Virus record (IMG/VR): IMGVR_UViG_3300036944_001324 | Span: 62,001-126,000 of that record | Length of the DNA stretch: 64,000 bases | Direction: 5' to 3' (one strand) | DNA from: a virus | Shown: positions 22,501-39,738 of the stretch, piece by piece | Layout of the letters: each line of letters opens with the position of its first letter | Position numbering within the stretch: position 1 is the first letter of the stretch | Translations under genes and position numbers: made by a program | Notes under the pieces: generated by a model | The model's input: the letters and a program-made list of their open reading frames with translations, nothing else | What the model was told of the DNA's origin: nothing | Databases searched by the model: none

Positions 22501-23505
22501 CTTCGTGATGATGAATTGGTCATCGAGCGGGTAGCCAACGGGGTACATCCCTTCCGAGGCCTTGATCGTCTTGGCTGCAAGCCGTGGAGACGGAAGCGTG
22601 AAAACCGTACCGTGCCGAGCAACATAGATGCTACCGCGCTGTGGGTCTTCGATCTGACCGAACTCTTCACCCAAGTTGGTAGAGCTAGACTCTACTACGC
22701 GTGTCACCAAAGATGTAGCGAACATACCCAAACCACGAAGGTTCACGTAGCGATCGTCCTCGTACGACGGCGATACAAACGCCCCACCAGCCGCAGCACC
22801 TGCGTGCTCGTTAGCCAGTACGTAGTTGCGCATCAGGTCAAGACCGAACTGGAACAGCGACATAGTGCTTTTCCATTCGTTGAACTTGTCCAGAACCACG
22901 TTGTCAACAACGACAGTCGAGTTAAAGCGCAGAGCATCAAGCCCTGCGTCGATGTTTCGGTTAGCTTCGTCCCACGACGCGCTAGAACCGATCTCAATGG
23001 CTGTCTTGACATCGCCGAGCGCAGCGGTGACACGCTCCCAACCGTACACATGGGCGAGCAAGTGCAGGTGAGCAGCCGGTTTGAAGTACTTGGGGATGTC
23101 TTTGATCACAGACCAATCAACAACACCAGTGGATTCGTTTCTGCGGTCAGCCAGCCACTGAACAAGTTCATTGGCGTTGCGTGAGTTCGGACCACCGTAG
23201 GCTTGGTAGTCGATAGCAAGTTCGGCTGCTGCAAGTGGATCGGTAACGATCATTGCATGAAAGACAGCTTTACCAGACCGCGTGGAAGCTTCTTCCCACA
23301 GATCCACGAACGTGAACTGTGACTCCAGCAGATCCGTATCAGTAGCGGGGTCAAAGATGCGGAAGTCATCTTTGTAAAAGGCGCCGTAGCGCGGGATGAT
23401 CATGCGGCGTGTCCCCGGCGCAGGTGAGTGATGCTCGCCCAAAACGCGGTTATTAGGAGACAGCCCAGTCACGTCCAAAGGAAGAACGGCAATGGGGTTA
23501 GGCAT
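19522..23505 (-). CDS. Large tail-fibre adhesin with six Ig-like repeats and three Cys modules, 1327 residues
   Basis: The N-terminal ~150 residues (PLDVTGLSPNNRVLGEHH, IPRYGAFY) match the fibre paralogues. About 380-440 is the shared NPHDVTKDDIKLEKLENLP segment. About 490-630 hold three Cys modules (C-x-G...ADGKGG...DCGY). From ~640 to the end are six ~110-residue Ig-like repeats, each starting YATSHTTITPG-like, with GAAPNTTYxIEYWL, a middle TTNAQG and a DDGVxxPRGxYxSW. The last three junctions are Pro/Thr linkers (PAPTPAP). This is a long, flexible, modular host-binding fibre. ATG 23505 has no clear ribosome site. Repeat identity is directly visible; receptor binding is inferred. Confidence 0.8.
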   Translation of the reverse strand: MPNPIAVLPLDVTGLSPNNRVLGEHHSPAPGTRRMIIPRYGAFYKDDFRIFDPATDTDLLESQFTFVDLWEEASTRSGKAVFHAMIVTDPLAAAELAIDYQAYGGPNSRNANELVQWLADRRNESTGVVDWSVIKDIPKYFKPAAHLHLLAHVYGWERVTAALGDVKTAIEIGSSASWDEANRNIDAGLDALRFNSTVVVDNVVLDKFNEWKSTMSLFQFGLDLMRNYVLANEHAGAAAGGAFVSPSYEDDRYVNLRGLGMFATSLVTRVVESSSTNLGEEFGQIEDPQRGSIYVARHGTVFTLPSPRLAAKTIKASEGMYPVGYPLDDQFIITKLVGDTAGTGCFLKGINARTGEMYLGILTAARCASPLTWHRYYFQSDSLDLKQLVEDHVKANNNPHDVTKDDIKLEKLENLPVVTVDDILSRTSTRKLVTMDALMYHMRAHMEGIELVRGDDGLVDLENNPMDDAKIIFAPCSDDGSGYGPDGTKYPNKDTFLSSFCDGTDKYVRWADGKGGHVDRLAQSDSDDCKYFNVPKQGEKISEACEGYDKVVLYADGKGGSNREVIKANDPDCGYVENPKAGTQIATFCSGVNQMVRYADGHGGYYDMPSMINTYICGGTIYPTPPGTGGTPDPSETPAPGSVTMEYATSHTTITPGTVETITATLRGAQPNTEYEIEFWIDSTAVGGKQSAGKVMVTTDAQGTAIEILQVTDDGQIPRGVYTSWVECAEFEAVSNTIDRTFTGGTSPGTPTLLYATNRTTISMGQTETITVTLTGAAPNTTYQLTYWLTSAALPPPQTRPAGTVSITTNSQGTATHVINNPADDGVSTPRGSYESWAEIASIPVTAPKVVRTFVANTTPATIVYATTRTTIYPGDTETITATLTGAAPNTTYQIEYWLFSSSLPAPQTRSAGIVSLTTNAQGTGTNTINNPPDDGVGVPRGVYQCWVTVPSLSIESVKVTRTFMASPTQAPTPAPTPAPVNANITYSTSHTTISPGIAETITATITNAAPNTTYPIEFWFTSTAVPPPQTRAAGTATITTNQLGNGSFVLNNPPDDGVSTPRGVYISWVVATSLNKVSPSVSRSFIGTPAPTPAPLNPVLTYSSTHSTISAGVTETISATLSGAAPNTTYAIELWLYSPALPSPQTRKTTTVSITTNASGYGIYSVNSYDDGVSLPRGAYTCWAVAPAFNNLQSAQFVRTFVGTPAPTPAPYNPVIQYYSSHTTITPGVTETQYVRLTGFSPNTTYVVECWIETTANLTAFGFYPNAQGITRAVGSTLNLTTNASGAASTQFSIYDNGVTPRGAYVCFAIAPQVGVRSPNFTRYFA
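19525..21590 (-). repeat. Six tandem Ig-like repeats (~330-345 bp each)
   Basis: Each unit encodes a ~110-residue beta-sandwich with conserved TETITATLTGAAPNTTY and PRGxYxSW segments. Units 2-4 are closest to each other; unit 1 and the terminal unit 6 have diverged. A seventh copy sits at the C-terminus of the 23618 gene. Confidence 0.85.
21620..22040 (-). repeat. Three tandem Cys-repeat modules
   Basis: Three ~43-residue units with CDG, CEG and CSG starts, each followed by ADGKGG/ADGHGG and a closing Cys. Homologous to units in the 17490 and 23618 genes. Confidence 0.8.
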
Positions 23506-23529
23506 AAAAGGAAATTAGTTCAATTCAAA

Positions 23530-23603
23530 CAGGCATAAACCCAAGGTACCAGAAAGCTCTTCCGTAAAGAAGTAGGCCTTCGAAGTACCTTGGGTTATGT
23601 TGG
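23530..23603. terminator. Long hairpin with GGCATAA/TTATGTTGG arms
   Basis: GGCATAAACCCAAGGTAC pairs with GTACCTTGGGTTATGTTGG, enclosing a second small hairpin (AGCTCTTCCGTAAAGAAG region). It lies between two minus-strand fibre genes. Confidence 0.8.
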
Positions 23604-23617
23604 CTCTCTAGGAGCTA

Positions 23618-25618
23618 TTACGCGCGCCAGCCGAGGAACGTACGTGCAACGCGTGGTGCCGCCTTACCCGTAGCCGTCTCAACAACCCAGCTGTTGTAAA
23701 CGCCAACTGGGAACATCGGGTCAGTGATAACCGTGATGCGCGAGACGCCGTTACCGGAGCCATCGGTAGTCACTGTGATCGTGCCACCCGAACGCTCTTG
23801 TGGAGCAGGCAGCGCAGTGGAGTGCAGACGGAACTCACACGTGAAGGTGCGGTTAGGCTCCCAACCCGTCATGATCACGCTGATGATTTCGCTATCACCG
23901 TACCACGTCTGCGTGTTGCTCGACGAGTACTGGATGTTACGTGGCAACGAAGGCGTTTGCGTCGGTGCGGGTGTGTTTTGATAACCGCACTCCGTAGAGT
24001 TGACGGTAATGGTAACGTTGTACGTTCCACCGCTGCCGTTGGCGCGGATCTCCTGGCGGTTAAAGCCATTGCAGGTGTAACCGAGAACGGTACCAGCTGG
24101 AGGATGCGTCTGTGTAGGTGGTGTAGTTGGCACCACGTATCCGCAATCGGTAGAGTTGCGGGTAAGGATGGCGTCGTACGTTCCACCAGAACCATCGGTG
24201 TAAGTACCCCACTGGTCAAAGCCACGGCATTCGTAGCCGATGAGAGAACCTGCTGGCGGATGAACCACCACTTGGCACTGAGACGAGTTGAGAACGCGAT
24301 CGAGCGTGATACCACCGGAGCCATTGGCAATCGAGCGTACAAGCGTCGTGCCTTCGCACACCGTCGACAGAACTGTACCGGCTGGAGGATACTCACCACC
24401 AGACTTACATTGCGGCGCGTCTGCTTGGATCAGCTCAGAGTACACACCACCATGACCGTCTGCCTTCAGACCCATCAGTGTAGTGCCAGAGCAGTACTGG
24501 GTGAGGATTTCGCCCTTTGGAGGGTGAGCAATCGGAGTAGTGGTTTGGTAACCGCAAGTCGTGTCCTTGGGTTGAATGATCGATTCGTACGTTCCACCCT
24601 TACCGTCAGCGTACGTACCGATACGGTCATAATGCACGTTGCAGTACGTGTGAAGCAGAGCGCCCTGTGGAATGGGTGGGGCAGTCGTAGCTGTAGCGCC
24701 GCAACCATGGATACCCATGTAGTCGATCAATGCATCGAAGGTCACGTATTTTTCAACACGTGCGGCGCGCAGAATATCGTCACGGGTTACCACGGGGAGG
24801 TTGCGCACGGCACCCAGACCCACGCTTTGAGCGGTGGCGCTGTGGATTTCCGTGTTCGCCATGTGGGTCACGAAAGTTTCGATCAAATCAGAAATGGTCA
24901 GGATGCCCAGAGCATCCAGCACAGCCCGAAGCGTAGCCGGTGTGATCAAAGTGGTGTTACTCTCACCAGCAACTGCATCGATTGCAGACGCAGGCCCAAA
25001 GTTCTGCACTTTGTCCAGACCGATCTGATCCTTATTAACCTGGTGAGGGTTGAGCAGGTTACGAACGTGGTTGTACTCATCACCGCTGGCCCGTGCCAAG
25101 ATAGCGGTAGCGATCTGAATGATCGCGTTGACCACTTCGGTCTGACCCACCATGTCGGAGAAGTTCCACGGGTGATCCGTGGGTGTGAACATCGCCGGCA
25201 AGTTGGCGATCTGCTCCCAAGTCAAAGCACGCGGATTCTTGACGATGTCAGCAATAGCTGTCGTCATTGCAGCTGTGTCAAGCGTCCATTGTCCACCGAC
25301 GGTCTGGTACTCGAGAATGTACTCGGTGTCTTCAGACACGTTCAGTGGGACCACTGCCGAGTACACATCCTTGGCAGTCGACAGTGACGCACCAACGAAA
25401 TGCAAACCGAAGTGGAAGTCAACCCCGTAGACGAGCGGGAGCAACGAAGCCCCGGCCCGTTTGAACACCCGCATCGATTCAGCGTAGAACGGTGCGAACT
25501 TCGGAATCAAGAAATGGTAGTCACGGGTATTGTCGTACGTGACAACCTGCGGTTCAGCAAGAACCCGGTTCGTCAGTGCGACCCCCGTGCGGTCCTCTGG
25601 ATAGGTATAAGTGGTCAT
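23618..25618 (-). CDS. Tail-fibre adhesin with five Cys modules and one Ig-like repeat, 666 residues
   Basis: First gene of the minus-strand fibre block, with ATG 25618. The N-terminal ~150 residues are the shared anchoring domain (DRTGVALTNRVLAEP, IPKFAPFY). About 185-205 has NPHQVNKDQIGLDKVQNF and about 275 has VGLGAVRNLPVVTRDDIL, both typical fibre segments. About 310-540 hold five Cys modules separated by PPAGxxL linkers. The final ~105 residues are one Ig-like repeat homologous to those of the 19522 product (PNRTFTCEFRLHSTALPAPQ). No chaperone or hydrolase domain is seen. Different combinations of the same modules in neighbouring genes suggest recombination between fibre genes. Confidence 0.8.
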   Translation of the reverse strand: MTTYTYPEDRTGVALTNRVLAEPQVVTYDNTRDYHFLIPKFAPFYAESMRVFKRAGASLLPLVYGVDFHFGLHFVGASLSTAKDVYSAVVPLNVSEDTEYILEYQTVGGQWTLDTAAMTTAIADIVKNPRALTWEQIANLPAMFTPTDHPWNFSDMVGQTEVVNAIIQIATAILARASGDEYNHVRNLLNPHQVNKDQIGLDKVQNFGPASAIDAVAGESNTTLITPATLRAVLDALGILTISDLIETFVTHMANTEIHSATAQSVGLGAVRNLPVVTRDDILRAARVEKYVTFDALIDYMGIHGCGATATTAPPIPQGALLHTYCNVHYDRIGTYADGKGGTYESIIQPKDTTCGYQTTTPIAHPPKGEILTQYCSGTTLMGLKADGHGGVYSELIQADAPQCKSGGEYPPAGTVLSTVCEGTTLVRSIANGSGGITLDRVLNSSQCQVVVHPPAGSLIGYECRGFDQWGTYTDGSGGTYDAILTRNSTDCGYVVPTTPPTQTHPPAGTVLGYTCNGFNRQEIRANGSGGTYNVTITVNSTECGYQNTPAPTQTPSLPRNIQYSSSNTQTWYGDSEIISVIMTGWEPNRTFTCEFRLHSTALPAPQERSGGTITVTTDGSGNGVSRITVITDPMFPVGVYNSWVVETATGKAAPRVARTFLGWRA
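23990..24690 (-). repeat. Five tandem Cys-repeat modules
   Basis: Five ~43-46-residue units, most introduced by a Pro-Pro linker (PPAGxxLG), with a C-x-G start, a central DGxGGTY or NGSGGTY and a final Cys often within CGY. The third and fourth copies are the most regular. Confidence 0.85.
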
Positions 25619-25804
25619 AGAGCCCTATGGGTGCGATAAGAAACGATTCATGCCTGTGAAAGTCGGAACGAAGCCAGCCAACATGCTATAGATGCAAGTC
25701 CATAAGACCCACCGATAGCTAAACCTTAAAAACACGCCCTTGTGACGTGCTTAAGTTTCCAGCTCGAGTAACTATAGTATTTTCAAAGAAGGAATGTACT
25801 CGCT
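25619..25804. promoter_or_regulatory. Divergent promoter region, no clear consensus
   Basis: 186 bases between divergent genes. It contains a small hairpin (ACACGCCCTTGTGACGTG area) and, close to the plus-strand gene, AACTATAGTATTTTC, a -10-like sequence followed by the AAGAAGGA ribosome site. It must hold promoters for both directions, but I cannot place them. Confidence 0.4.
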
Positions 25805-27058
25805 ATGTACAATATCGACAGCGCCTATGGCGTGACACGAACCCAAGGTGCTCAATGGAAAGCGCACGACGTCAAGGCAATGACCGCTACGGAAGTCTTT
25901 AGCACTTTCCGGCAGTTGTACCTGACTCTGTCTTCCCAGTTTCTGGCTGAGCCTATTTTCGTGGACTTCATGTCCATGCAACATAACCTCGGTACCTCCA
26001 CCGAAACCATGGAAGTCATCTTCGAAAACTGGGATAACACAACCCCAGATACGATTGATGAAATTCCTCAGTACGACACAGTGCGTGCTATCTTTACCGA
26101 TGCATTCCGTGCCGGCTACAAGATCAACGTCGCGCGTCCCGGCAGTCACTGGACATCAGCCGCTAGCCTGGCTGAACGCACCGAAGTGCAGATCTCTCGG
26201 CCTGGCACCAACATGACCCATTTCACCAAGCACTGCATGGTGAGTGTGAATGGGTATTTCTATCCGACCGAGACGGATGGAGTTCTCACCTTCTTGCCCA
26301 ATGCTGGCAAGAACAGCTACGCGTCTCGCCGCAACCAGTGCGGTATCTTGTCATTCGAGAAAGTGGGTGAAATCCAGCAAGTACCGATCATCCCCGCAAA
26401 CGTTCGACCTGCTGCGGTTGGTGGCGAGCTACGCTATCGCTGCCACGTCGATCTGCCTGATGTCGATCTGACCAACAAGAGCGTGATCTTGGTGATTGCC
26501 GGGCATATCCACTTCCTTGGTGACGGTGTGTTCTGGCCGGTATCGAACAACACGTTCTGTGTGGACATGGAGAAGATCCCTTCTCTGCAGCGCTTCTACG
26601 AAAGCCGCAAGTTCATCGACTATTCGAAAATGAACTTGACCCAGTGGATCGACAAGGAAGTTGTGAACATTGAAGAGTTCTTCTCCGACGCCAAGTTCAT
26701 GCACTACATCGCTCATGAGCAATCGTTCTTTGTGGTGGTGGACACCCCGCGTCTGACCAAAGCCCGCATGCACATCCGGCAATTCAACATGCCAGGTCTT
26801 TTCATCGCTTATCGTGAACCCAACGAACTGCTGATGACAGGTACGGGCCGTGTTGCAGAATACTGGAAGACCCATGAGGACGGTGAATGGCGTGTTACGG
26901 TTGCTGACAGCTACCGTGCAAAACGTGTCTTCAACACAACACCTGACTTCAATCCCAACGAAGGTGTTTCCTCCACCAACGTTCCTTACAGCACCTACGC
27001 TTACAGTCGGGCCCATCTGCTTGACATCATCGGTGACAAATTGAAAACAACGCCTTGA
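25805..27058 (+). CDS. Probable virion structural protein, 417 residues
   Basis: ATG 25805 follows AAGAAGGA. The protein is soluble and beta-rich in its middle (VILVIAGHIHFLGDGVFWPV), with no membrane segment or catalytic motif I recognise. It lies between tail-fibre and baseplate-like genes and is convergent with the 27150 gene, so a tail or baseplate component is the natural guess. Codon use is of the well-expressed type. Family not recognised. Confidence 0.65.
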   Translation: MYNIDSAYGVTRTQGAQWKAHDVKAMTATEVFSTFRQLYLTLSSQFLAEPIFVDFMSMQHNLGTSTETMEVIFENWDNTTPDTIDEIPQYDTVRAIFTDAFRAGYKINVARPGSHWTSAASLAERTEVQISRPGTNMTHFTKHCMVSVNGYFYPTETDGVLTFLPNAGKNSYASRRNQCGILSFEKVGEIQQVPIIPANVRPAAVGGELRYRCHVDLPDVDLTNKSVILVIAGHIHFLGDGVFWPVSNNTFCVDMEKIPSLQRFYESRKFIDYSKMNLTQWIDKEVVNIEEFFSDAKFMHYIAHEQSFFVVVDTPRLTKARMHIRQFNMPGLFIAYREPNELLMTGTGRVAEYWKTHEDGEWRVTVADSYRAKRVFNTTPDFNPNEGVSSTNVPYSTYAYSRAHLLDIIGDKLKTTP

Positions 27059-27128
27059 CGGCATACATCCCCTACCCCGTGATTAACTCCTTGAGCGGAT
27101 GTTACATCAGGGGTAGGGGACTATGCTG
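27059..27128. terminator. Bidirectional terminator between convergent genes (ACGGCATA/TATGCTGC)
   Basis: ACGGCATACATCCCCTACCCC pairs with GGGGTAGGGGACTATGCTG across a long loop that itself can fold (GTGATTAACTCC...GGATGTTACAT). It overlaps the stop of the plus-strand gene. Confidence 0.8.
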
Positions 27129-27149
27129 CTTGGTGCTCCCAAACAGCGT

Positions 27150-27770
27150 TTAAGGCGCTGGGAGATTGTTCTTAACCCATGCTTCCAATTGCTGAAGCTT
27201 GGAGCGTGTAGCTTGTAAGTCGTCAAGAGCTCGTTGAAGCTTGGAGTAGTCACTCTCGTTGTCAATGACTGCTTCCAAACGAATCGCTTCCAGACGTGCG
27301 CTTTCCTCGTGAGAGATAATGGCGGGCTGGCTGATGATGACACCCTTGATAGTGGGTTTCACACCGACAGCAGACTGCACCAGTCCTTCGATACGTCCGA
27401 TCAACCCATCGAGTTGAAAAGAGTCAGGCAAGGGACCCAGTGAGACACCGAGTACAACGGGGGTGTACAGAACTCCATTGATGTCCGGAGCGCTAGCGAT
27501 GAAGCTAGAAGGAACGTAGACCCATTCACCCGTACCAGCTTGCAGACCGACAATGCAAACGTTGTTTGCAAGATCTTCTTGGTAAGCTTCTGCGCTCACA
27601 CCGTGGGGTTCGTAATAACGCTCCCAGATCAGATCGCCGGATGCAGCGATGTCAGACAACATCCGCAGGCTACGGCACGTATAAGCCACCTGAGGGGTCA
27701 GCAGCGCGTCATACGGAGCCAGCAGTGTGAATACACCGACAGCCCCGATTTGAGGTATAAAACCCGACAT
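27150..27770 (-). CDS. Probable baseplate/tail structural protein, 206 residues
   Basis: ATG 27770 is preferred over an in-frame TTG at 27776. It starts only 6 bases after the stop of the upstream gene, so the two are coupled. The body is beta-rich with hydrophobic strands (VYVPSSFIASAPDINGVLYT). The C-terminal ~60 residues are a charged coiled coil (ARLEAIRLEAVIDNESDYSK onward) ending NNLPAP. Function is inferred from the operon with the 27777 gene; family not recognised. Confidence 0.6.
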   Translation of the reverse strand: MSGFIPQIGAVGVFTLLAPYDALLTPQVAYTCRSLRMLSDIAASGDLIWERYYEPHGVSAEAYQEDLANNVCIVGLQAGTGEWVYVPSSFIASAPDINGVLYTPVVLGVSLGPLPDSFQLDGLIGRIEGLVQSAVGVKPTIKGVIISQPAIISHEESARLEAIRLEAVIDNESDYSKLQRALDDLQATRSKLQQLEAWVKNNLPAP

Positions 27771-27776
27771 GTTCAA

Positions 27777-29084
27777 TTACACCGTGGCGTAGTTAAAACG
27801 AGCAGCAACCATGTACTCGACGTTATCGAGCTTTTGGCTCACGAACGTGATGTTGTTACGGGTAAGCGTACGCATACCGGCAGGAACGTCAAGCGACGTG
27901 GTCAGGTTCTCGGCGGCGCGCAGCAGGTTACCCATCATGGTCACCCATTGTTTGGTCAGCTCACTTTGACGGTTGAAGTCTTCGTGCGTGGACTCGACAC
28001 CCAGGTAGTCGTTGACGACTTGCGAGAGCAAGAACATGTTGTTGCGGTTGTCTGGGCCACCTACCACCACCAAACCAATCGAGCGGTAAGGATGGTGGGT
28101 GAACTGCAAGGCAGCGTTCACGTGAGCCAGTGTCCATTCAGGAGGGAGCTTGGACTTCGCAAACAGCAGGCTTTCTTCACCCGTCATGATCGGGGAGTAG
28201 ATGCCGGCGATCGATGTGCGGTTCGGGATAGCGTACTTATCCCAGCGAGGGAACACCACGAAGTGGGTGTTGCGAAACAGATCAGGAAGAATAACCTTCC
28301 AGGATTCGATGTCCTCATTGGAATGCGATTCGATGTAGCTGGTGATAGCTGCATTGATCAGGTCTGTGGTGTTGCCCTTAGGGCCGTAGACAACCGCGTA
28401 CCAATTGAGGGTAATCGTGTTGTTCAGTTGAGCCGGGTTGTACCACTTGACGGTCTGCGCGACGGTCACGGTGTTGGGCTTTTTGTCTTTGGCTTCTTCA
28501 ACCAACTCCATGACACGGTCTTGGGGGCGGCTCTCGAGCAGGTTCTGAACCTGACCAGCAGCCAGCAGCAGATCGTCCAGACGATCCACAGGTGGAACGA
28601 TCACGATGTCGTACTCGTCGTACTGTGCTTCGAAAGCACTGTTACGCAGCCAGATCTTGGCAGAGATTTCAGGACTGCCGTCGATAGTCAGACGAAACTT
28701 GACCCATTCAGGCATCCGACGTGTGCCGTCAGAGCTCAAGGGGCCGCAAGTGATCTCACTCACATAACCCGAAAAACGCAGATCCAGTGCAGCGATGAAA
28801 TCTTGAAGGCGCCAAGACGCATTGATAGTGAGGCCCTGGTCGTAGATCCAGTTGCCCATCTCCAGCAAGCGATCACGGTGCGCAACACCGATGGCTTGAG
28901 GTGTTTGGTTGTCCTTGGAAGAAAAGACCAACAACTCCAAACCAGCGTAGGTGGGTGTGGAATACTCTTTCACGTCCTTGGAGAACGTGCGGCAGAAGCT
29001 GGTGATTTCACCAAAAACAGACGTGGCGGAATTGCCATTGTCTTTGAGTTGAGCCAGGGACCAAAAGCCCTTAACGGTAAGCAT
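27777..29084 (-). CDS. Probable tail/baseplate structural protein, 435 residues
   Basis: ATG 29084 with AAGGA 12 bases upstream. Mixed alpha/beta protein with long soluble strands, no membrane segments, a Trp-rich N-terminus (VKGFWSLAQLKDNGNSA) and a beta-type C-terminus ending VAARFNYATV. Several segments (SYIESHSNEDIESWKVILP) read like contractile-tail proteins, but length and motifs do not fit a sheath protein well. It forms an operon with the 27150 gene and is divergent from the sigma-70-type promoter unit. I would call it structural, specific role unknown. Confidence 0.6.
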   Translation of the reverse strand: MLTVKGFWSLAQLKDNGNSATSVFGEITSFCRTFSKDVKEYSTPTYAGLELLVFSSKDNQTPQAIGVAHRDRLLEMGNWIYDQGLTINASWRLQDFIAALDLRFSGYVSEITCGPLSSDGTRRMPEWVKFRLTIDGSPEISAKIWLRNSAFEAQYDEYDIVIVPPVDRLDDLLLAAGQVQNLLESRPQDRVMELVEEAKDKKPNTVTVAQTVKWYNPAQLNNTITLNWYAVVYGPKGNTTDLINAAITSYIESHSNEDIESWKVILPDLFRNTHFVVFPRWDKYAIPNRTSIAGIYSPIMTGEESLLFAKSKLPPEWTLAHVNAALQFTHHPYRSIGLVVVGGPDNRNNMFLLSQVVNDYLGVESTHEDFNRQSELTKQWVTMMGNLLRAAENLTTSLDVPAGMRTLTRNNITFVSQKLDNVEYMVAARFNYATV

Positions 29085-29181
29085 GGTGTTCTTTATCCTT
29101 GTGACTAATAAACCCGCATAAGTGATTCCCGACGCTTTTGCAGACCATTAAACGTGATCTGAAAGCTTCGGGAACAAGCCC

Positions 29182-29210
29182 TTGACGGGCACAGAAACTT
29201 ATGATATAAT
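29182..29210 (+). promoter_or_regulatory. Consensus host sigma-70 promoter with extended -10
   Basis: TTGACG (29182-29187), a 17-base spacer, then TATAAT (29205-29210), with TG one base before the -10 (TGnTATAAT). The start of transcription should fall near 29217, about 37 bases before ATG 29254. Matching the host consensus this closely is unusual here; no other intergenic region in the window shows it. Confidence 0.8.
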
Positions 29211-29253
29211 TTTCGCGATAACTGCAAAGAACCCTTAATGAGGCGTCCCCTAC

Positions 29254-29688
29254 ATGACCCAAATAATTAACCTACTCAGCTTTATAAAGGAGCTGTTGTT
29301 CAACCGTGGTAAGAAAGACGGTAAAAAGGACCACAAAAGTGGTTTCCTACACACATTGTTGCTGGCTGTATTGGCTGCTTCTTTGTACGGTAACTATTTG
29401 CTCGCTGGTCGTGTGTACGAAAAGACCAAGCAAATCATCAGCCTCAAAAACGAAGTCCAAGAGCTTCGTCCCATGGCAGACAAAGTCGCTGAACTCCAAT
29501 ACATCAACACTGCACTGAGTAATACCATCGCCTTGCTTACAGGCGGCACAGCAGCCCTTGGGCGTGGTAAGACACCCTTACCCTACCCACTGCCTCCTCA
29601 GAGCCCTAAAGAGGCTCTGGTGGCGCCTGCTCCACCGCCTAACAATCCACAACGCCAATTACCGGCAAAAGAAAATAAGGTTGAGTGA
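29254..29688 (+). CDS. Small bitopic membrane protein with coiled coil and Pro-rich tail (spanin-like layout)
   Basis: 144 residues. A basic N-terminal segment with GKKDGKKDHK is followed by one membrane helix at ~32-52 (LLLAVLAASLYGNYLLAG), then a coiled coil ~55-90 (KTKQIISLKNEVQELRP) and a Pro-rich C-terminus (PLPYPLPPQSP, APAPPP). By the positive-inside rule the C-terminal part is periplasmic. This resembles an inner-membrane spanin (Rz), but the open frame nested in +1 has no convincing lipobox for an Rz1 partner, so lysis function is only one option. GAGG lies 9 bases before ATG 29254. It is driven by the sigma-70 promoter just upstream, which would allow expression by host polymerase. 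Confidence 0.65.
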   Translation: MTQIINLLSFIKELLFNRGKKDGKKDHKSGFLHTLLLAVLAASLYGNYLLAGRVYEKTKQIISLKNEVQELRPMADKVAELQYINTALSNTIALLTGGTAALGRGKTPLPYPLPPQSPKEALVAPAPPPNNPQRQLPAKENKVE

Positions 29689-29708
29689 AAAAATACAGCC
29701 AACCTGAA

Positions 29709-29752
29709 TTGGTTGTAGGGTAACGCTGCGCAGCGTTACCACAAACCAACCA
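29709..29752. repeat. 22-bp perfect palindrome inside a longer hairpin
   Basis: GGTAACGCTGC and its exact reverse complement abut at 29719-29740 with no loop, flanked by GGTTGT and ACAAACC that extend the pairing. It lies between the 29254 and 29771 genes. It lacks a T-run, so it is not a standard terminator. It could be a protein-binding operator or an RNA-processing site. Confidence 0.7.
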
Positions 29753-29770
29753 ACCTGAGATTGAAAAACA

Positions 29771-31285
29771 ATGAGCAATGATTCAGCCGAGTCCGTTGTC
29801 ACAGATGGGCTCGTCCTTTATGCCGATGGTTCGCGCAAGGGCGACAACGTTAACGGCTATCTTGGATACGGTGTTCACGGTTACTCCTTTTCTGTGGAAC
29901 CGCCCAAGAAAGGAACTGGCAATCCAAAGTACGTACCTACCGAGAAAGGGTACGTGGAAAAAACCGAAGAAGGTATTAAACCGATCACACCGGTTCGTTA
30001 CTTTGACGCTGTGGGTTCAACCCACCAACTGGCTTCGAACAACGTGGCCGAGCTGTACGCAGCACAGCACGCCATCGATATCGCGACACAACACCATACC
30101 AAGAAGTTGTTGATCAAGACCGATTCGAAATACGTGGTTGGCGGGATCATGGAGTGGTCCCAGAACTGGGTGAAGAACCGCTGGATCAAGCGCGATGGAA
30201 CACCCGTACCCAACAAGGTAGAATGGCAAGGCCTGCTCGCTAGTGTCGCCAACCTGACGGCCACTGGTGCCAAGCTGGACGTTCAGTACGTCAAAGGTCA
30301 CTCCACGTTCCTTGGCAACAACATCGCTGACAAACTTGCTGGGATTGGCTCAGAAATGAGCAAAGGCGGTAAAGCCACTGTTCACACGACAGTCAGTAAT
30401 CCCGATGGTTACTGGAAAACGCAAGAAGAGAAATCTCCTTTGCTGGCATTCCGTACCATGCTGTTCTCTACGATGACAAGCACCCATCATCCTGGTGAGT
30501 ACTACCTCACTACGGAATCCAAGGGTGAAGAACTCGTAGGCAAAGCACACGTGGATACAGCCTACGCAGTTGTGCAGCTCAAAGAACCCGAACCAGTTCT
30601 GGACATGGTTCGTCATCGCCAAAGCGTCTTGACGGATGGTATTGATTACCTGACGCTTGCACGCATCGACCGGATCTTTGCAGGCGGTCGTGCTGACGAT
30701 CTGATGCAATACGGTGAGCACTGCCTTACCCTTGGACGCGGCCGTAGCAAGAACATGTTCTTCGTTGCTGACCTGAACACGGGTGAAGGTGGTGGGCACG
30801 GTGAGCCATTGACTGAACAGCTTGAACCACCAATGCTAGCCATGCGGGCCATGATGGCGATTGCTGACCTCAAGGACATCTTGGAAGCTTTTAAGGACCA
30901 AGACAAAGCAGTTTGGGAAAAAGCAAACTGGTGCGTGACGGATATCACGAGCGAGTTCTACAAAACCGAGGAAAAGAAAGTCGGTAAAGAAACCAAGCAG
31001 GTTCAAGAGATGCACAAAAGCATCAGCGTCACGATGACGAAGAAAGCCCTGAAGATCAATGCTTTCGGAAGAATGGTGGACATTAACCTGACGCTTGGTC
31101 TTGATGTACCGGGTCGCAATAACCTCAACCGTTTTGCTGAACGGGGGGTGAAGATGCATTTGATCTGTGCCAAGGAAAGTGATAGCGCCTTCCGTTTTCA
31201 CACAGTCATCCAAGCCGGTGAAGACTGGAGCATCTGGAGCAGTTATTACAGCAACATGGTGCTCCTGCCTAAGGAAACAACCTAG
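29771..31285 (+). CDS. RNase HI with long C-terminal extension (phiKZ gp155-like)
   Basis: 504 residues; a bacterial RNase HI has ~155. The N-terminal ~200 residues contain all four catalytic acids: D19 in LYADGSRKGD, E94 in NNVAELYAAQ, D118 in LLIKTDSKYVV and D187 in NNIADKLAG, plus the WxxNW-type segment (WSQNWVKNRW) and VKGHS. The domain is enlarged by an insertion between the first two motifs. It should cut RNA in RNA-DNA hybrids, e.g. Okazaki primers or R-loops. Residues ~215-504 are an alpha/beta extension I cannot identify. The ribosome site is weak (GAG). The gene ends at the 31287 terminator. Confidence 0.85.
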   Translation: MSNDSAESVVTDGLVLYADGSRKGDNVNGYLGYGVHGYSFSVEPPKKGTGNPKYVPTEKGYVEKTEEGIKPITPVRYFDAVGSTHQLASNNVAELYAAQHAIDIATQHHTKKLLIKTDSKYVVGGIMEWSQNWVKNRWIKRDGTPVPNKVEWQGLLASVANLTATGAKLDVQYVKGHSTFLGNNIADKLAGIGSEMSKGGKATVHTTVSNPDGYWKTQEEKSPLLAFRTMLFSTMTSTHHPGEYYLTTESKGEELVGKAHVDTAYAVVQLKEPEPVLDMVRHRQSVLTDGIDYLTLARIDRIFAGGRADDLMQYGEHCLTLGRGRSKNMFFVADLNTGEGGGHGEPLTEQLEPPMLAMRAMMAIADLKDILEAFKDQDKAVWEKANWCVTDITSEFYKTEEKKVGKETKQVQEMHKSISVTMTKKALKINAFGRMVDINLTLGLDVPGRNNLNRFAERGVKMHLICAKESDSAFRFHTVIQAGEDWSIWSSYYSNMVLLPKETT

Positions 31286-31286
31286 C

Positions 31287-31328
31287 GTACGGTAGAAGGC
31301 CTCTAAAGGGCCTTCTACCTATGCTGTC
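31287..31328. terminator. Hairpin terminator with right-hand TATGCTGT
   Basis: GGTAGAAGGCC-tctaaa-GGGCCTTCTACC followed by TATGCTGT. The left GCATA arm is replaced by GCGTAC. An ATG inside TATGCTGT opens a frame into the next gene but has no ribosome site. Confidence 0.8.
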
Positions 31329-31381
31329 TACCCACGAATACTTTGATAGCTTCGAAGCCACTACCAGAAAGGCTTATCAAG

Positions 31382-31438
31382 ATGCAGCAAACCCATTCGC
31401 GTATGAGTCATTACCCCCTCACAACCCAACCCGTGTAA
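31382..31438 (+). CDS. Putative 18-residue leader peptide
   Basis: ATG 31382 follows AGAAAGG by 9 bases and encodes MQQTHSRMSHYPLTTQPV, stopping 5 bases before ATG 31444. The downstream gene has no ribosome site of its own, so coupled translation is plausible. Same arrangement as 10849/10951. Confidence 0.35.
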   Translation: MQQTHSRMSHYPLTTQPV

Positions 31439-31443
31439 CAACC

Positions 31444-31914
31444 ATGATGACAACCAAATCCTCCGATCAAAAGGGGAATAACGAGCCGGCTCAGAAATCC
31501 CGACTCGAAACCCTCAAAGCAGCAGTGATCAAAGCCGTCGTTCCTATCCGGATGCGCAAAGCTATTTTCGCAGCTTCTTTGGTCGCGCGGCTTAAAGACT
31601 TGACAACTCCCGACAAAGAGTTGGCCAAGCGAGTGGGCATCCTCATGGAGCTCACGTGTAATCCCTCCTCGCTTCTGTATCCGATGCAAATCAACAACTG
31701 GATATGGAAGGACCTCAGTACTGACGGTATCGATCTCTCCGGCAAGAGTCAACTGTCGAGCGAACAACTTCATGCTTTCTGCACGGCTGTGATCAATAGC
31801 ACACCAGAAGCTCTGGAATACAACACGCACCGCGCCATGCGTGAAGACGTTTACCGGTTAGTGATGGCATTCACACCGGCTACGGCGTCCAGAATGAACA
31901 TGCAGGCTGCATAA
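31444..31914 (+). CDS. Unknown phage protein, 156 residues
   Basis: The frame is open from 31321, but that ATG lies inside the terminator motif. I choose ATG 31444 (MMTTKSSDQKGN), which sits just after a leader ORF. The first ~30 residues are polar and probably disordered; the rest is helical (LARLKDLTTPDKELAKRVG-type segments), soluble, with no recognised motif. It is convergent with the 31976 gene. If the long form is used the protein has 197 residues. Confidence 0.6.
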   Translation: MMTTKSSDQKGNNEPAQKSRLETLKAAVIKAVVPIRMRKAIFAASLVARLKDLTTPDKELAKRVGILMELTCNPSSLLYPMQINNWIWKDLSTDGIDLSGKSQLSSEQLHAFCTAVINSTPEALEYNTHRAMREDVYRLVMAFTPATASRMNMQAA

Positions 31915-31927
31915 CCCACCCAGACAC

Positions 31928-31971
31928 CATAGAGCAGGGTCCGAAAAGGACCCTGCTCTTATGCCGCTTAA
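31928..31971. terminator. Bidirectional terminator between convergent genes (CATA/TATGCCGC)
   Basis: CATAGAGCAGGGTCC-gaaaa-GGACCCTGCTCTTATGCCG. It lies between the plus-strand 31444 gene and the minus-strand 31976 gene. Confidence 0.85.
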
Positions 31972-31975
31972 AGCG

Positions 31976-32809
31976 TTAAACCTTCTTCAAAACGTCGGTG
32001 AGGCGTTCCACGGAAGCCACGTAGGTGGTTGCCCGGTAGTAGGTCAGCGCAAAGAACTCGACCTGACGAGCCAGAGCGAACAAGCATTCTACCAAGTTGT
32101 TCAGCTGGACTCCAGACAGATCTTCGATGCTGCCTTCGTTGATTTCTTCAACCAGCAGGTTGATCAGGTCATTGACTTCTTTGACACTGTTTTGTACCAC
32201 GGAAGGATCAATGCTTTTGATCTCTCGGATGATGCCTTGGCTCACGTTGAAGACATCACGAATGTCGCCGATGCTGGTAGTGATGTCACCCACGGTCATG
32301 ACGGCGCGATGAGAACCCCGCACAAAGAAAGAAGCAACACTGGCGTCGATTTCTTCAGAACGCTTTTGGGCGACCGAGTTGTTCTTCGTCAGATCACGAA
32401 GATACTGACGAGAACTCTTGTTCGAGAGAATTTCAGCAATCAGCTTGCGGTACGTCAGGATAGCCGGTGCGGTGAAATCGTGGTAGTAATTGAACCCAGA
32501 CAAAACCGTGTTGCCGTAGTCAAGGTAGTTGCCATGAAAGCCCTCGAGGGTAGTCACCGACAAAGGAGCAACGACCGCGAAGTTAGCGCTTGCCAGCTTC
32601 CGCATGATCTTTTCTTGTTCCACTGCCAGATGGGTGGCCTTGTAGAAGTCAAACTTGGCAGAAAAGAAACTGGCCAGGCCGTCGCGAGCACTTGCGAAGA
32701 AGCGTGGCAGAAAGCCAACGGTAGCCCGGGACGTGTTGCCGGTTTGGAATTCAGCAGCGATGGCTTCGCGAGCCACCTGCATTGCCGGAGTGATCAAAGT
32801 CAGTTGCAT
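31976..32809 (-). CDS. Probable virion protein, 277 residues
   Basis: ATG 32809, isolated minus-strand gene with a terminator behind it and a divergent ATPase gene in front. The protein begins MQLTLITPAMQVAREAIAAE and is strongly helical along its length, including a C-terminal Asp/Glu-rich amphipathic region (VKEVNDLINLLVEEINEG). A small basic/aromatic N-terminal region precedes candidate small-x-Glu protease sites. phiKZ-group phages package several helical inner-head proteins of this size, so that is a reasonable but unproven assignment. Confidence 0.55.
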   Translation of the reverse strand: MQLTLITPAMQVAREAIAAEFQTGNTSRATVGFLPRFFASARDGLASFFSAKFDFYKATHLAVEQEKIMRKLASANFAVVAPLSVTTLEGFHGNYLDYGNTVLSGFNYYHDFTAPAILTYRKLIAEILSNKSSRQYLRDLTKNNSVAQKRSEEIDASVASFFVRGSHRAVMTVGDITTSIGDIRDVFNVSQGIIREIKSIDPSVVQNSVKEVNDLINLLVEEINEGSIEDLSGVQLNNLVECLFALARQVEFFALTYYRATTYVASVERLTDVLKKV

Positions 32810-33002
32810 GTACTTGCTTTCAAAAATAAGAAGGGTTTGCTAGTGAAGCTTATCGGGCTTACCAAAATGGAATATGAATCCATTTTGTCAATGGTTCTAT
32901 AGAATTACCGACTATTTTTTCTGGCGTTGGTGCATCATTTGTTACGAAGGCTTGCAACCCAAGTCCTTCTATTTTCATTCATCAACACAAGCCTACTCCC
33001 TT
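32810..33002. promoter_or_regulatory. Divergent intergenic region with hairpin
   Basis: 193 bases. AAAATGGA-atatgaa-TCCATTTT (32864-32886) forms a perfect 8-bp hairpin. TATTTTTTCTGG and TGCATCATTTG near 32930 faintly recall the three-copy element, but too weakly to call. Promoters for both genes must lie here. Confidence 0.4.
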
Positions 33003-34514
33003 ATGCTGCAACTTGCACCCGATCTGGAGACATCCCCAGCCATGAAAATCCTGCTGAACATCGGCGGGGGACTCGACATGCCAACAGGCACCTACATCAA
33101 AGGCCTTCATGGCGAGATGATATTGCTCGGTGGTTTGGGCTTTATCACCGGTATGGTAGGTATCGGTAACAACTTCAAGACCACACTGCTGCATTGCATG
33201 ACCAACCAGGGCATGGCCCGAGTGTTTGAGTCCTGCGCCCTGCCTGAAAAGAAAACTCAACGCAAGCTCAAGCGTCTTGAGAGCACCAACTCCGCCTACG
33301 ATACGGAAGTGAACATTCAGCTGCCGCGTCTGAAGACGCTCGCTGCTGCGATTCGTACCTTCGCTGCCTTGGGCTATAACCTGATCGACCAGAAGTACTG
33401 GCGTGTCACGGACAAGACCATTTACTGGGGCAACGAGTGGTTCGAGAAGTTCAAGGACTTCATGAAGTACAAACGCAAGAACGAAGACGCGTACAAACTG
33501 CTCACTCCGTTCCCGGATCATGACGGCAAATCACCCATGCCGGTGTTGCTGCCTACTTTCGGCTGCGTGGACTCTTTGACGGACTTCCAGTCCGAAAAAG
33601 AAGAAGAGATGATGGACGCCAACGAACTCGGTGAGTCCGGTGGCAATACCCTGTTCATGAAGGGCGGCTTGATCAAGACGCGACTGCTGACAGAACTGCC
33701 TGCCCTCACTGGTGGTGCGTACCACTTCATTGGCCTCACCGCGCAGTTGAACAAAGAGCTGGCCATGGGCGGCCCTCCAGGCGGCGCCGCACAACCGACC
33801 AAGAAGCTGCAGTACTTGAAGAACGGTGACCGTATCGTAGGCGCCACGAACAAGTTCACCTACGCTACCAGCGTGTGCTTTAACGCTTACAACGCGGCTC
33901 CTTTGGTGGACAAAGACCGCATGGCCGAGTACCCGCACCCTTCGGGCTCCAAAGGCATCGGTGACACTGATCTGAACACCGTCAAACTCACGGTACTGCG
34001 CAACAAGAATGGCCCCACTGGCGTCACCCTCACCATGGTGGTCACGCAGCGTGAAGGCTTGCAGTTCGAACTCACTGAGTTCCACAACATCCGCGAGAAT
34101 GGCCGTTTCGGTATCATCGGTAAGGGTGCTTACTACACCCTGGCTCTGTACCCCGAATGCTCCGTGATGCGCACCACAATCCGTGCCAAGATCGAAGAAG
34201 ACGCCAAGCTGCGTCGCGCGATCAACATCACTTCCGAAATGCAGCAGATGACCGAGTTCATGCCCGACATCTGGGCTGAGTACGGCTGCACACCGGAAGA
34301 GCTGCACGCCGATCTGATCAAGCTGGGCTATGATTGGGATCTTCTCCTGAAGACACGCGGTTACTGGTTGTTCAACAACGAGACCAACCCAGTTCCTTTC
34401 CTGTCCACCTACGACTTCCTGCGCATGCGCAAAGGCGAGTACTTCCCGTACTGGATGACTGAAGACAAGAAGGGCATCAAGCCCGAGTTTGTGTTCGAGT
34501 ACGACACCCAATAA
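33003..34514 (+). CDS. RecA/UvsX-like P-loop ATPase, 503 residues
   Basis: Start taken at ATG 33003 (MLQLAPDLETSPAM); the frame extends to 32874, but that part is Trp/Cys/Phe-rich and noncoding-like. ATG 33042 is an alternative. Residues ~48-62 hold a P-loop, GMVGIGNNFKTTL, of the RecA/UvsX variety (glycines then NFKTT rather than GKS). Residues ~235-330 contain GGAYHFIGLTAQL, GGPPGGAAQPTKKLQYL and strand-rich parts in the order seen around the UvsX DNA-binding loops. The C-terminus (YWLFNNETNPVPFLS) also reads like UvsX. Probable role: strand-exchange recombinase for recombination and replication, alongside the SbcC-like protein. A DnaB-type ATPase is the alternative. Codons are of the highly expressed type. 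Confidence 0.65.
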   Translation: MLQLAPDLETSPAMKILLNIGGGLDMPTGTYIKGLHGEMILLGGLGFITGMVGIGNNFKTTLLHCMTNQGMARVFESCALPEKKTQRKLKRLESTNSAYDTEVNIQLPRLKTLAAAIRTFAALGYNLIDQKYWRVTDKTIYWGNEWFEKFKDFMKYKRKNEDAYKLLTPFPDHDGKSPMPVLLPTFGCVDSLTDFQSEKEEEMMDANELGESGGNTLFMKGGLIKTRLLTELPALTGGAYHFIGLTAQLNKELAMGGPPGGAAQPTKKLQYLKNGDRIVGATNKFTYATSVCFNAYNAAPLVDKDRMAEYPHPSGSKGIGDTDLNTVKLTVLRNKNGPTGVTLTMVVTQREGLQFELTEFHNIRENGRFGIIGKGAYYTLALYPECSVMRTTIRAKIEEDAKLRRAINITSEMQQMTEFMPDIWAEYGCTPEELHADLIKLGYDWDLLLKTRGYWLFNNETNPVPFLSTYDFLRMRKGEYFPYWMTEDKKGIKPEFVFEYDTQ

Positions 34515-34520
34515 TCACAA

Positions 34521-34542
34521 GCTGCGTGAAACTTCACGCAGC
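34521..34542. terminator. Short hairpin GCTGCGTGAAACTTCACGCAGC
   Basis: A 9-10 bp stem right after the ATPase stop, followed by a pyrimidine-rich tract (CGTTCCATCTCTTTCTTTTT). It lacks the GCATA/TATGC arms, so it is a weak terminator or an RNA-stabilising hairpin. The next gene may be co-transcribed. Confidence 0.6.
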
Positions 34543-34574
34543 GTTCCATCTCTTTCTTTTTCTTTCATTTCACC

Positions 34575-34976
34575 ATGAACACCCAAGACTCTAACGTGAC
34601 CGACGTTGTGGACAAAAACACTCCACGCTCTGCCGACGGTTTTCACCTGTCCCCTGCTCAGCTGACCAAGCAACCCGGCGATGTCGATCTGATCGAAAAA
34701 TGCCGTGAGATCCTGGTTGGCCTTGCCATCGATCCTGAACAACTGGCTGTCTACGATAGCGCTCACACGCTCATCATGGCCAAGAACATGACCACGTTCG
34801 CACAGCGCACAGCGCTCAACCAGTTCTGGCACCTGCAGATGGGTCCCTTCGGTCGCCTGTCCCACATGCAGCGCTACAAGCTGATCGAAAACGGTACGGT
34901 CGAAGACTGGCTGCGTTTGTTCAACCAGGGTCCTGCTCAATTCATCATCGACAACAAGCTGCCCGTGCCGTTTTGA
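34575..34976 (+). CDS. Unknown small phage protein, 133 residues
   Basis: ATG 34575 is preceded by about 25 pyrimidine-rich bases (TCTTTCTTTTTCTTTCATTT) with no Shine-Dalgarno sequence at all. The codon bias is of the highly expressed class. The protein is soluble and helical (ALNQFWHLQMGPFGRLSHMQ) with a polar N-terminus. It is coupled in position to the UvsX-like gene. No family recognised; a partner of the ATPase is a guess from adjacency. Confidence 0.65.
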   Translation: MNTQDSNVTDVVDKNTPRSADGFHLSPAQLTKQPGDVDLIEKCREILVGLAIDPEQLAVYDSAHTLIMAKNMTTFAQRTALNQFWHLQMGPFGRLSHMQRYKLIENGTVEDWLRLFNQGPAQFIIDNKLPVPF

Positions 34977-35101
34977 TGAACCATTATTGCTGTTGGATAT
35001 TAAAAACCCCATCAGTAATAATGGTATGCGTTGAGTGACATCGACGTTTGTTCCGTACCTGAAGCATCAATCTCCCACCACTAAGAAAGGAGTACTGCAA
35101 G

Positions 35102-35392
35102 ATGAAGAAAATCCTGCTGTTCTGTTCGATCTGTTGCCTGTTCCTGCTCTCGATCCCTGCTTTCACCCTGGGCCTGGCCGCGGCCGTCTCTGACGCCTTC
35201 GCCCATCCCGAGTTCGTGATCCTGGCGGCCGCCGCGTGCGCTACTGCCATGGCGTTCGTCGCCACTCAAGCCATGGCCAAGGCCATTGCCTGGGCGCGAA
35301 TGCGATTGCAGCGCAAGGGTTTCTCGATCGGTGCTGGTTCCTCGGATTTCGCCGGTATGGTGAGCGCAAGCTCGTTCCATGCCAGGTGTTAA
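35102..35392 (+). CDS. Small membrane protein, 96 residues
   Basis: Good ribosome site (AAAGGAG) 9-10 bases before ATG 35102. An N-terminal hydrophobic helix (ILLFCSICCLFLLSIPAFTL) is followed by a second Ala-rich membrane segment (VILAAAACATAMAFVAT), then a basic, soluble tail. Two membrane helices and a basic tail fit a small inner-membrane protein; holin is possible but nothing specific supports it. A membrane role is seen, function unknown. Confidence 0.6.
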   Translation: MKKILLFCSICCLFLLSIPAFTLGLAAAVSDAFAHPEFVILAAAACATAMAFVATQAMAKAIAWARMRLQRKGFSIGAGSSDFAGMVSASSFHARC

Positions 35393-35443
35393 TCTTTAAC
35401 AACTGATCAAACCTTCTTCGACTTCGCACACAGTTGACGATAA

Positions 35444-35481
35444 CTCCACCGCTATGTTAGCGGTGGAGCTTTATGCTGTCG
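35444..35481. terminator. Hairpin terminator with right-hand TATGCTGT
   Basis: CTCCACCGCTATGTTAGCGGTGGAG followed by CTTTATGCTGTC. The left GCATA arm is missing. It lies between the 35102 and 35510 genes. Confidence 0.85.
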
Positions 35482-35509
35482 GTGTTTTTAACGCTTAAAA
35501 AGAAATCGT

Positions 35510-35791
35510 ATGCTTGAACTCTATCTGGTATGGCTCTCCGGTATTTCTATCGGGTGGCCTATCTTCCTTTTCATTTGTTTGTTGTGTGTAGCGATAGCGC
35601 TGCTTAACGACGCCAAGTCCAACATTGCCACTGCATTCAGCGGTGTGCTTCTCTTGCTTAGCGTCTTCGCACTGGCGTTGTTAACGCTCTCGCCAGACAA
35701 AAGCACAATCCAAGAGATGATTCAAATTACCAGGTATCCTGATTTGAAGTCTCGACCTGTTTTGCAACCTATTCCTACGGAACCCAAGTAA
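35510..35791 (+). CDS. Small membrane protein, 93 residues, overlapping the RNAP clamp gene
   Basis: Two membrane helices: ~12-33 (ISIGWPIFLFICLLCVAIAL) and ~40-62 (IATAFSGVLLLLSVFALALL). A polar C-terminus is probably periplasmic or cytoplasmic on the same side as the N-terminus. TAATG overlap at 35789-35793 couples it to the RNA polymerase clamp gene. The ribosome site is weak (AAAAGAAA). No family recognised; co-translation with a virion polymerase subunit is odd. Confidence 0.6.
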   Translation: MLELYLVWLSGISIGWPIFLFICLLCVAIALLNDAKSNIATAFSGVLLLLSVFALALLTLSPDKSTIQEMIQITRYPDLKSRPVLQPIPTEPK

Positions 35792-36459
35792 TGTCTAACC
35801 GCCAACAAGCTACCGAGTACCTACTCAGCTGGATCGACAAGCTCGATCCCAGTGGCCACAACCGTACCATCATGGAGCAACAACTGGGAGCGATGTCTGA
35901 CGAACAGTTCACCAAACTGATGGATGACTTCGAAAACGACGTCGATCGTCCTGCCATGTACGTGCCCAACTTCGGTCCGGTGAAACTGGATATCCAGCGC
36001 AATCACCGCATCGCCCAAGAACTGGGTCATGACTTCTACCAGCAACTGTGGATCGGTTCCGTGGATTACCAAACTCCTAAGTACCTGACTCCTCAGAAGT
36101 ACATGATCCTGGAGTTGCCGTGCCGTCGTCAAGCGCAGATCCTGGACAAGGGTATCTCGACCACGGAACACACACGCTCTATCGACCAGCGCACCGGTCA
36201 AGTAGCCGGTGACAGTGCAGCGGCCAAGGTGTCCTACCCTGAGCTGAACATCCTGCGCGGCATGGGGATGGAGCAAACAGTCAAGGAACTGATCAAGTTC
36301 CGTGGTGGTGATCTTCGTGGCTTTGACGCCATGAACACCATGGCGCATCGTCAAGGCGAAGTCAGTCTGGACGCCATCACTCCCTACGCTTCGGGTGTGG
36401 AGTCGACGTCCGCAATGAAGGTCAGTCTCACCTCGATGCACCTGAGCAACACGCTGTAG
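35791..36459 (+). CDS. RNA polymerase beta C-terminal clamp fragment (phiKZ gp149-like)
   Basis: 222 residues that align with the last ~200 of bacterial beta. MSDEQFTKLMDD near residue 35 matches FSDEEVMRLAEN. VDYQTPKYLTPQKYMILELP matches the stretch before NHLVDDK. SYPELNILRGMGMEQTVKEL (~145-165) matches MEVWALEAYGAAYTLQEML, and GGDLRGFDAMN matches SDDVNGRTKMYKN. This is the beta C-terminal anchor that holds the beta-prime clamp. The 1417-residue beta product ends exactly where this region would begin, so the two together rebuild a full beta. It overlaps the membrane protein gene upstream and is 4 bases from the gene downstream. The alignment is by eye but spans the whole protein. Confidence 0.8.
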   Translation: MSNRQQATEYLLSWIDKLDPSGHNRTIMEQQLGAMSDEQFTKLMDDFENDVDRPAMYVPNFGPVKLDIQRNHRIAQELGHDFYQQLWIGSVDYQTPKYLTPQKYMILELPCRRQAQILDKGISTTEHTRSIDQRTGQVAGDSAAAKVSYPELNILRGMGMEQTVKELIKFRGGDLRGFDAMNTMAHRQGEVSLDAITPYASGVESTSAMKVSLTSMHLSNTL

Positions 36460-36463
36460 CCAC

Positions 36464-37246: not shown

Positions 37247-37247
37247 A

Positions 37248-37291
37248 GCGGCATAAAAGCCCCTCTGAAAAGAGGGGCTTAATATGCTGTC
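37248..37291. terminator. Bidirectional terminator between convergent genes (GCGGCATA/TATGCTGT)
   Basis: GCGGCATAAAAGCCCCTCT pairs with AGAGGGGCTTAATATGCTGT around a 4-base loop. Confidence 0.9.
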
Positions 37292-37298
37292 TCGGTCG

Positions 37299-37802: not shown

Positions 37803-37842
37803 GATCAAATCTTTCCGATGGATGTTACTGACTAAGTTAAGC

Positions 37843-37908
37843 AACTTTTTTTCAGCAATACATCATAGTTGTGTATAGTAGATGGATAAGCCGGTTTCAT
37901 AGGCTTAT
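37843..37908 (+). promoter_or_regulatory. Composite regulatory element, copy B (conserved 30-mer, hairpin, TATG)
   Basis: AACTTTTTTTCAGCAATAC runs into ATCATAGTTGTGTATAG. Six bases on is a hairpin ATAAGCC (37886-37892) / GGCTTAT (37902-37908), followed by TTATGTTTTC. Same order as copies at 4218 and 63221. It sits upstream of the 37942 gene, in the divergent gap with the 37299 gene. The ATACA/TGTAT arms inside the 30-mer could also form a small dyad. Confidence 0.6.
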
Positions 37909-37941
37909 GTTTTCATTTTCATCATAACTTCACAAAAGCAC

Positions 37942-38451: not shown

Positions 38452-38529
38452 GCGCTTTATGCGCAGCTACGTTCAAACACGTAGTTTAACCAACACCAAC
38501 ACCCACCGTTCTTAAATAGAGGTGATCAC

Positions 38530-39637: not shown

Positions 39638-39738
39638 CGCTTTACTCCCAGGGCAATTTTACCTCGTTCAACATCCGTGACAAACTCGTCTAACCAACAG
39701 TACGTCAAAACAGCACATTCAATCAGGAGCACTTTCGC

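Follow-up and report, generated by a model that had tools for sequence, protein, structure and literature searches.

Transcription without the host RNA polymerase has its textbook example in the phiKZ-like phages. Phage phiKZ is described as replicating in the presence of rifampicin, independently of the host enzyme, and its late promoter motif is reported as the word TATG, with the +1 at its G (PMC4666361). Its genes 156.1, 156, 155 and 154 are reported to be co-transcribed, and phiKZ155 to be essential, with high expression at 20 min that requires the nucleus protein ChmA (PMC12571901). As to rifampicin, RSL2 and RSF1 are reported to be sensitive and RP12 and RP31 resistant (PMC5468394). The titles and abstract openings of the phiKZ transcription and promoter literature gave no report of a conserved host-type promoter at the place described below; three phiKZ start-site papers (Wicke 2021; Putzeys 2024; Ceyssens 2014) lay outside that search, and such a promoter may already be published.

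The window analyzed here (the whole stretch of 64,000 nucleotides, to which coordinates refer unless given as genome positions) belongs to a 271,654-bp record of a phiKZ-like jumbo phage, in which the genes flanking the gap of interest share at most about 33% identity with those of the nearest named relatives. No close relative was found by DNA, nor by the P0001, P0002 and P0003 peptide patterns in viral_contigs. The original prediction that this phage has its own polymerases was borne out by the detection of multisubunit polymerase homologues of the phiKZ kind: an RNA polymerase beta subunit is encoded in the window (phrog_3148), the genome holds an early-type nvRNAP beta' piece (phrog_2987, the counterpart of phiKZ gp55), and homologues were found of phiKZ gp55, gp65, gp66, gp67, gp68, gp69, gp70, gp71, gp155 and gp157, the sigma-like gp68 among them. 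The called genes of the genome gave no match at E<=1e-5 to 201phi2-1 gp105, which we take to be the counterpart of phiKZ gp54, that is, the chimallin counterpart.

The gap under study separates divergent genes. The virion structural gene at 27777..29084, on the reverse strand, is the phiKZ gp157 counterpart (phrog_3293), and the block on the forward strand begins with a gene at 29254..29688 for a 144-aa single-pass membrane protein with an amphipathic N-terminus, one transmembrane segment and a proline-rich C-terminus. Next on the same strand is an RNase H-domain gene (29771..31285; phrog_3265), the counterpart of phiKZ gp155 (Nlp2), likely in the same operon. The membrane protein has no family match of its own and is the positional counterpart of 201phi2-1 gp242 and phiKZ 156.1 (phrog_14813 group). 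The order gp157, one or two small genes and RNase H, with the block divergent from gp157, recurs in nearly all 21 named relatives, pVa-21 and SPN3US having an extra endodeoxyribonuclease gene ahead of RNase H. In most relatives the first small protein bears an N-terminal WPFLK-type motif ahead of one transmembrane segment, and the next gene encodes a lipoprotein in five of the first seven relatives read. The earlier view of a single small membrane protein as the target is weakened accordingly, because the block runs on into RNase H and the phiKZ equivalents are reported as co-transcribed (PMC12571901). Between the membrane-protein and RNase H genes, the RNA of 29689-29770 contains two strong hairpins (z -4.4; 0 of 200 shuffles), one of them a perfect palindrome, GGTAACGCTGCGCAGCGTTACC, which could be a processing or attenuation site within the operon.

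A late role of the membrane protein in lysis, also proposed earlier, lost ground as well. Its topology is i-spanin-like, with one N-terminal transmembrane segment. A lipoprotein, embedded or following, was not found here, the other two frames of 29254-29790 holding no embedded o-spanin; among the first small proteins scanned, only that of Ea35-70 matches an Rz-like spanin, and weakly (1.6e-4). A better spanin pair spans genome positions 24020-24983, about 66 kb away, where the clearest o-spanin of the genome (24642-24983; phrog_456, 4.6e-10) adjoins a gene (24020-24598) whose product has, by eye, one likely transmembrane segment and a helical stretch. Given that pair, the protein at 29254 resembles an i-spanin in shape but is not an established lysis spanin. 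phiKZ, 201phi2-1, EL and Ea35-70 are listed among the two-component spanin phages (PMC6139136).

Within the gap, on the forward strand, the element at 29182-29210 consists of a -35 hexamer TTGACG (29182..29187; 5/6 consensus), a 17-nt spacer (29188-29204) that ends in TGA and carries the TG of an extended -10 (29202..29203), and a -10 hexamer TATAAT (29205..29210; 6/6). It thus matches TTGACA/TATAAT at 11 of 12 positions, exactly as first described. Judging from the -10 spacing, transcription would start near 29217-29218, which gives a putative 5' leader of 29217..29253 whose folding shows nothing notable; GAGG at 29240-29243 is a possible ribosome site, and 43 bases lie between the promoter and the ATG at 29254. 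The word TATG (29200..29203) overlaps the extended -10. The statement that no other gap shows such a site holds even across the whole 271,654-bp genome: it is the sole 11/12 site in a scan of 20000-39999, where the remaining listed sites reach 9-10/12, and the record has one site with at most one mismatch to the consensus at spacers of 16-18 bp and 26 with two. With a sigma-70 weight matrix not fitted to the hosts of these phages, the gap ranks first among the 201 upstream regions of the genome (16.1, the next scoring 11.2). TATAAT occurs 9 times genome-wide, 33 +/- 6 being expected, so that the genome is depleted of this hexamer, and the gene-upstream share of strand-positions is only 4.3%. 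One hundred Markov-1 random genomes held on average 1.77 sites of at least 11/12 with spacers of 16-18 bp, and 0.05 when 17 bp and TG were required as well, five of the hundred carrying at least one of the latter; the sequence by itself is therefore not decisive, and luck is possible.

Comparison with relatives is more informative. In the 201phi2-1/phiKZ clade, CTTGTG...17...TATAnT is kept in the alignment, with exceptions, and in the 201phi2-1 clade conservation exceeds the hexamers (GTC.GGTATA). The Noxifer cluster has TTGACA-17-TATCCT and also TTGACA-18-TATAAT (locus L180), members of the FLC9 cluster read GTGACA- or TTGACA-17-TAGAAT, and individual loci have TTGACA-17-TAGAAT (L175), TTGACG-17-TACAAT (L178), TTGATG-17-TAAAAT (L193) and TTGACA-17-TAAAAC (L198); in the phiKZ-like PA_ZH1 the form is weak (TTGTGT-17-TATTAT with TG). 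The consensus is sometimes matched in full or almost so, as in L180, L175 and L178. Sigma-70-type architecture is thus found at the same place in relatives, and is weak or absent in many clusters: of the 44 clusters (88 regions, window included), no more than 14 have a representative that scores at least 10, all 14 at 17 bp, with 13 lying 25-140 nt before the start and one at 13 nt. No credible site was found in the gap of EL, Goslar, Moabite, LucasX, Ea35-70, pVa-21, DT01 or L200, and L150 has lost the site though its neighbors retain it. The exact Pseudomonas element is present once per genome in each of five Pseudomonas phages; a leave-one-out matrix of this element, which has small pseudocounts and from which we take chiefly how often the exact element occurs, placed the target best in three of the five genomes and second in PhiPA3 (8.6 vs 9.4), did not exceed 8 in RVTF4, and in PA_ZH1 gave another place nearly equal (20.2 vs 22.0).

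Other conserved sequences accompany the gap. Across the 201phi2-1/phiKZ clade (L016, L022-L024, L027 and IMG loci), the leader has a near-invariant GGGTAGGC.TAGT some 35 nt ahead of the small gene, and GGTAGG is likewise near-invariant in Noxifer; for the leader RNA of 14 relatives, RNAalifold predicts zero pairs. On the gp157 side (L016, L019, L022-L024, L027), few blocks of the gap are as conserved in the phiKZ and Noxifer clades as CCATCTATAAAATC, which is perhaps the divergent gp157 promoter. Elsewhere in their genomes, the phiKZ-like Proteus phage 10 (W04) has a perfect TTGACA-17-TATAAT at 43906-43934, and RVTF4 (W08) near-perfect sites at 27635 and 11365, 17 and 29 nt ahead of called genes.

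The cluster tests used one representative per cluster, the first member and not the best, and dropped L149 and L179, in which the small-gene start is probably mis-called. Over 43 non-redundant relatives, with the window excluded, the best sigma-70 scores sum to 340.0, compared with 269.8 +/- 14.6 for permuted hexamers, none of 400 permuted models reaching the observed sum; the opposite strand sums to 264.8. Towards the block a spacing of 17 bp is best (316), followed by 11 bp (282), and the opposite strand has no peak at 17. An earlier set of 34 clusters behaved alike, with 0 of 284 permuted models reaching the target sum. Among the upstream regions of eight whole genomes the target ranks 1/201, 2/217, 4/195, 2/222, 6/216, 6/199, 30/216 and 26/209, the last two being the modest rank of 201phi2-1 and that of PA_ZH1. 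The target regions average 10.63 at 17 bp, with a secondary rise to 9.74 at 12 bp, and 1,109 other upstream regions of the same genomes have means of 5.53-5.73 over spacings of 12-23 without preference for 17 bp; when one region per genome was picked at random, none of 200,000 draws attained the sum of the targets. Fisher's method gave 3e-7 forward and 0.79 reverse for the 34 clusters, and 6.5e-7 with and 9.5e-6 without the window genome for the eight ranks, but relatives within clades share descent, so that these p-values are too small and independence is overstated. On sequence comparison, the spread over separate clades, together with changes towards the consensus inside clades, is a stronger point than the p-values.

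The reading towards which we lean, with slightly better than even confidence, is that the element is a conserved promoter of the host sigma-70 type for the inner-membrane-protein/RNase H operon, probably beside a phage promoter. Such a promoter would drive a small inner-membrane protein and an Nlp2-like RNase H, with a lipoprotein gene between them in many relatives; the host holoenzyme would recognize it at any time when the phage DNA is accessible from the cytoplasm, and it would act in addition to, not in place of, a phage-polymerase promoter that serves the essential gene downstream. Since phiKZ is described as growing in rifampicin and phiKZ155 as essential and ChmA-dependent, a phage polymerase has to be capable of transcribing the operon in phiKZ; because a phage promoter must then serve it, the host-type element can be at most an additional start there, and the growth in rifampicin and the nucleus-dependence of phiKZ155 argue against the host polymerase as the only reader. 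Of the original prediction, then, the sigma-70-type promoter looks genuine, and relatives keep its architecture in the same gap; its reading by host polymerase is something that we still infer. As to the suggested use at once after entry, the expression reported for gene 155 in phiKZ, high at 20 min and ChmA-dependent, is not immediate. If the host-type reading is correct, these phages and host transcription would meet at one conserved place, ahead of a gene for which a checkpoint role in nucleus maturation is reported (phiKZ155); the need of RSL2 and RSF1 for the host polymerase, not shared by RP12 and RP31, might thereby be explained in part.

It is less likely, though a possibility to be taken seriously, that the element is a special-class promoter of a phage polymerase, for example of the nvRNAP with the sigma-like gp68, or of a middle-gene factor, and resembles sigma-70 by coincidence. 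A gp68 homologue does exist in this genome, phiKZ155 is reported as ChmA-dependent at 20 min in a phage described as independent of the host polymerase, and the conservation beyond the hexamers in the 201phi2-1 clade would suit such a class. The known early and middle phage classes do not account for the element, however. The phiKZ early word TATATTAC, enriched in forward orientation in Pseudomonas relatives (13-22 copies per genome, five genomes), has none in this genome; the middle motif AAanTTACc (near -24) is absent from the gap by reading, and a looser middle word, A[AT]..TTACC, showed no upstream enrichment. The early-like class of the phage itself is defined by the core GCGATATATA, with GATATATA plus a downstream TTGTGA-like part, 59-82 nt before genes, and the element reads GATATAAT and lacks the downstream part. 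TATG is present in only two of the eight elements compared. The exact element is also single-copy in five of five genomes, no large class of look-alikes being seen with what is a weak matrix, and its variation between clades stays near the sigma-70 consensus at 17-bp spacing. Sites of the early-like class, in place of TATATTAC, lie at genome positions 49894, 53232, 57160, 129038, 217745 and 219588, 59-82 nt before genes, the last reading GTGATATATC; Noxifer has four sites of the form TTGA(C/T)T-17-TATATTGTC.

Late transcription by the nvRNAP from TATG, with the +1 at G29203 and the sigma-70 likeness in the window accidental, is unlikely in our judgment. The word is the reported phiKZ late motif with its start at the G (PMC4666361), TTATG is enriched upstream of genes here (63 vs 26.5 expected), and the divergent gp157 counterpart likewise has CTTATG upstream; but the overlap with TATG is confined to the window and PA_ZH1, the other six of the eight phages retaining sigma-70-like hexamers without it, and the TATG excess comes partly from the terminator-linked TATGCCG. 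The latter has 66 genome copies, 55 of them intergenic (e.g., window 4185, 9545 and 43390), of which 37 lie within 150 nt past a same-strand stop, 25 of these at 32-52 nt; by eye it often stands behind a hairpin and T-run, it is over-represented in the upstream sets of FLC9, Noxifer, RVTF4 and Phabio, and it has the appearance of a signal linked to terminators in these phages. Least probable of all is a chance or relic sequence without function. In its favor, about 5% of random genomes carry a site with 17 bp, TG and at least 11/12 and several relatives have none, but the same place and direction in many relatives, the 17-bp preference, the failure of all 400 permuted models and the high whole-genome ranks of the target region speak against it.

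Returning to the host-type promoter, its presence can be set beside the rifampicin phenotype. The gap of L185, which we take to be RSF1, has TTTACA-16-TAGAAT with TG (score 12.4), that of L187, presumably RSL2, scores 8.9 with TG, and that of L200 (RP12, 279,845 bp) has no site (3.5). That site presence tracks rifampicin sensitivity is suggestive at most, and with phiKZ running counter to it and no more than three phages compared, the correlation is only a lead. A distinctly unlikely extension would be that nucleus-forming phages retain one host-polymerase promoter on purpose: readable only outside the early vesicle and the nucleus, it would report DNA exposure and, at the transfer from vesicle to nucleus, supply in advance both the membrane protein and the checkpoint factor Nlp2/RNase H, its loss, as in RP12, going with full rifampicin resistance.

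Among known systems, the phiKZ unit 156.1-156-155-154 shares with the window block its gene order and its divergence from gp157. The early, middle and late promoters of phiKZ are, like the element, AT-rich and placed in the same kind of gaps, and TATG overlaps it; unlike them, the element is made of two-part hexamers at a fixed 17-bp spacing and is single-copy. The rifampicin-sensitive RSL2 and RSF1 have a sigma-70-like site in the same gap, if L187 and L185 are indeed these phages, whereas the resistant RP12 has none. With bacterial sigma-70 extended -10 promoters the element shares TTGAC-, the 17-bp spacing, TGn and TATAAT, but it sits in a phage whose relatives have two multisubunit polymerases of their own and can grow without the host enzyme, and no other site in the phage genome is of comparable quality.
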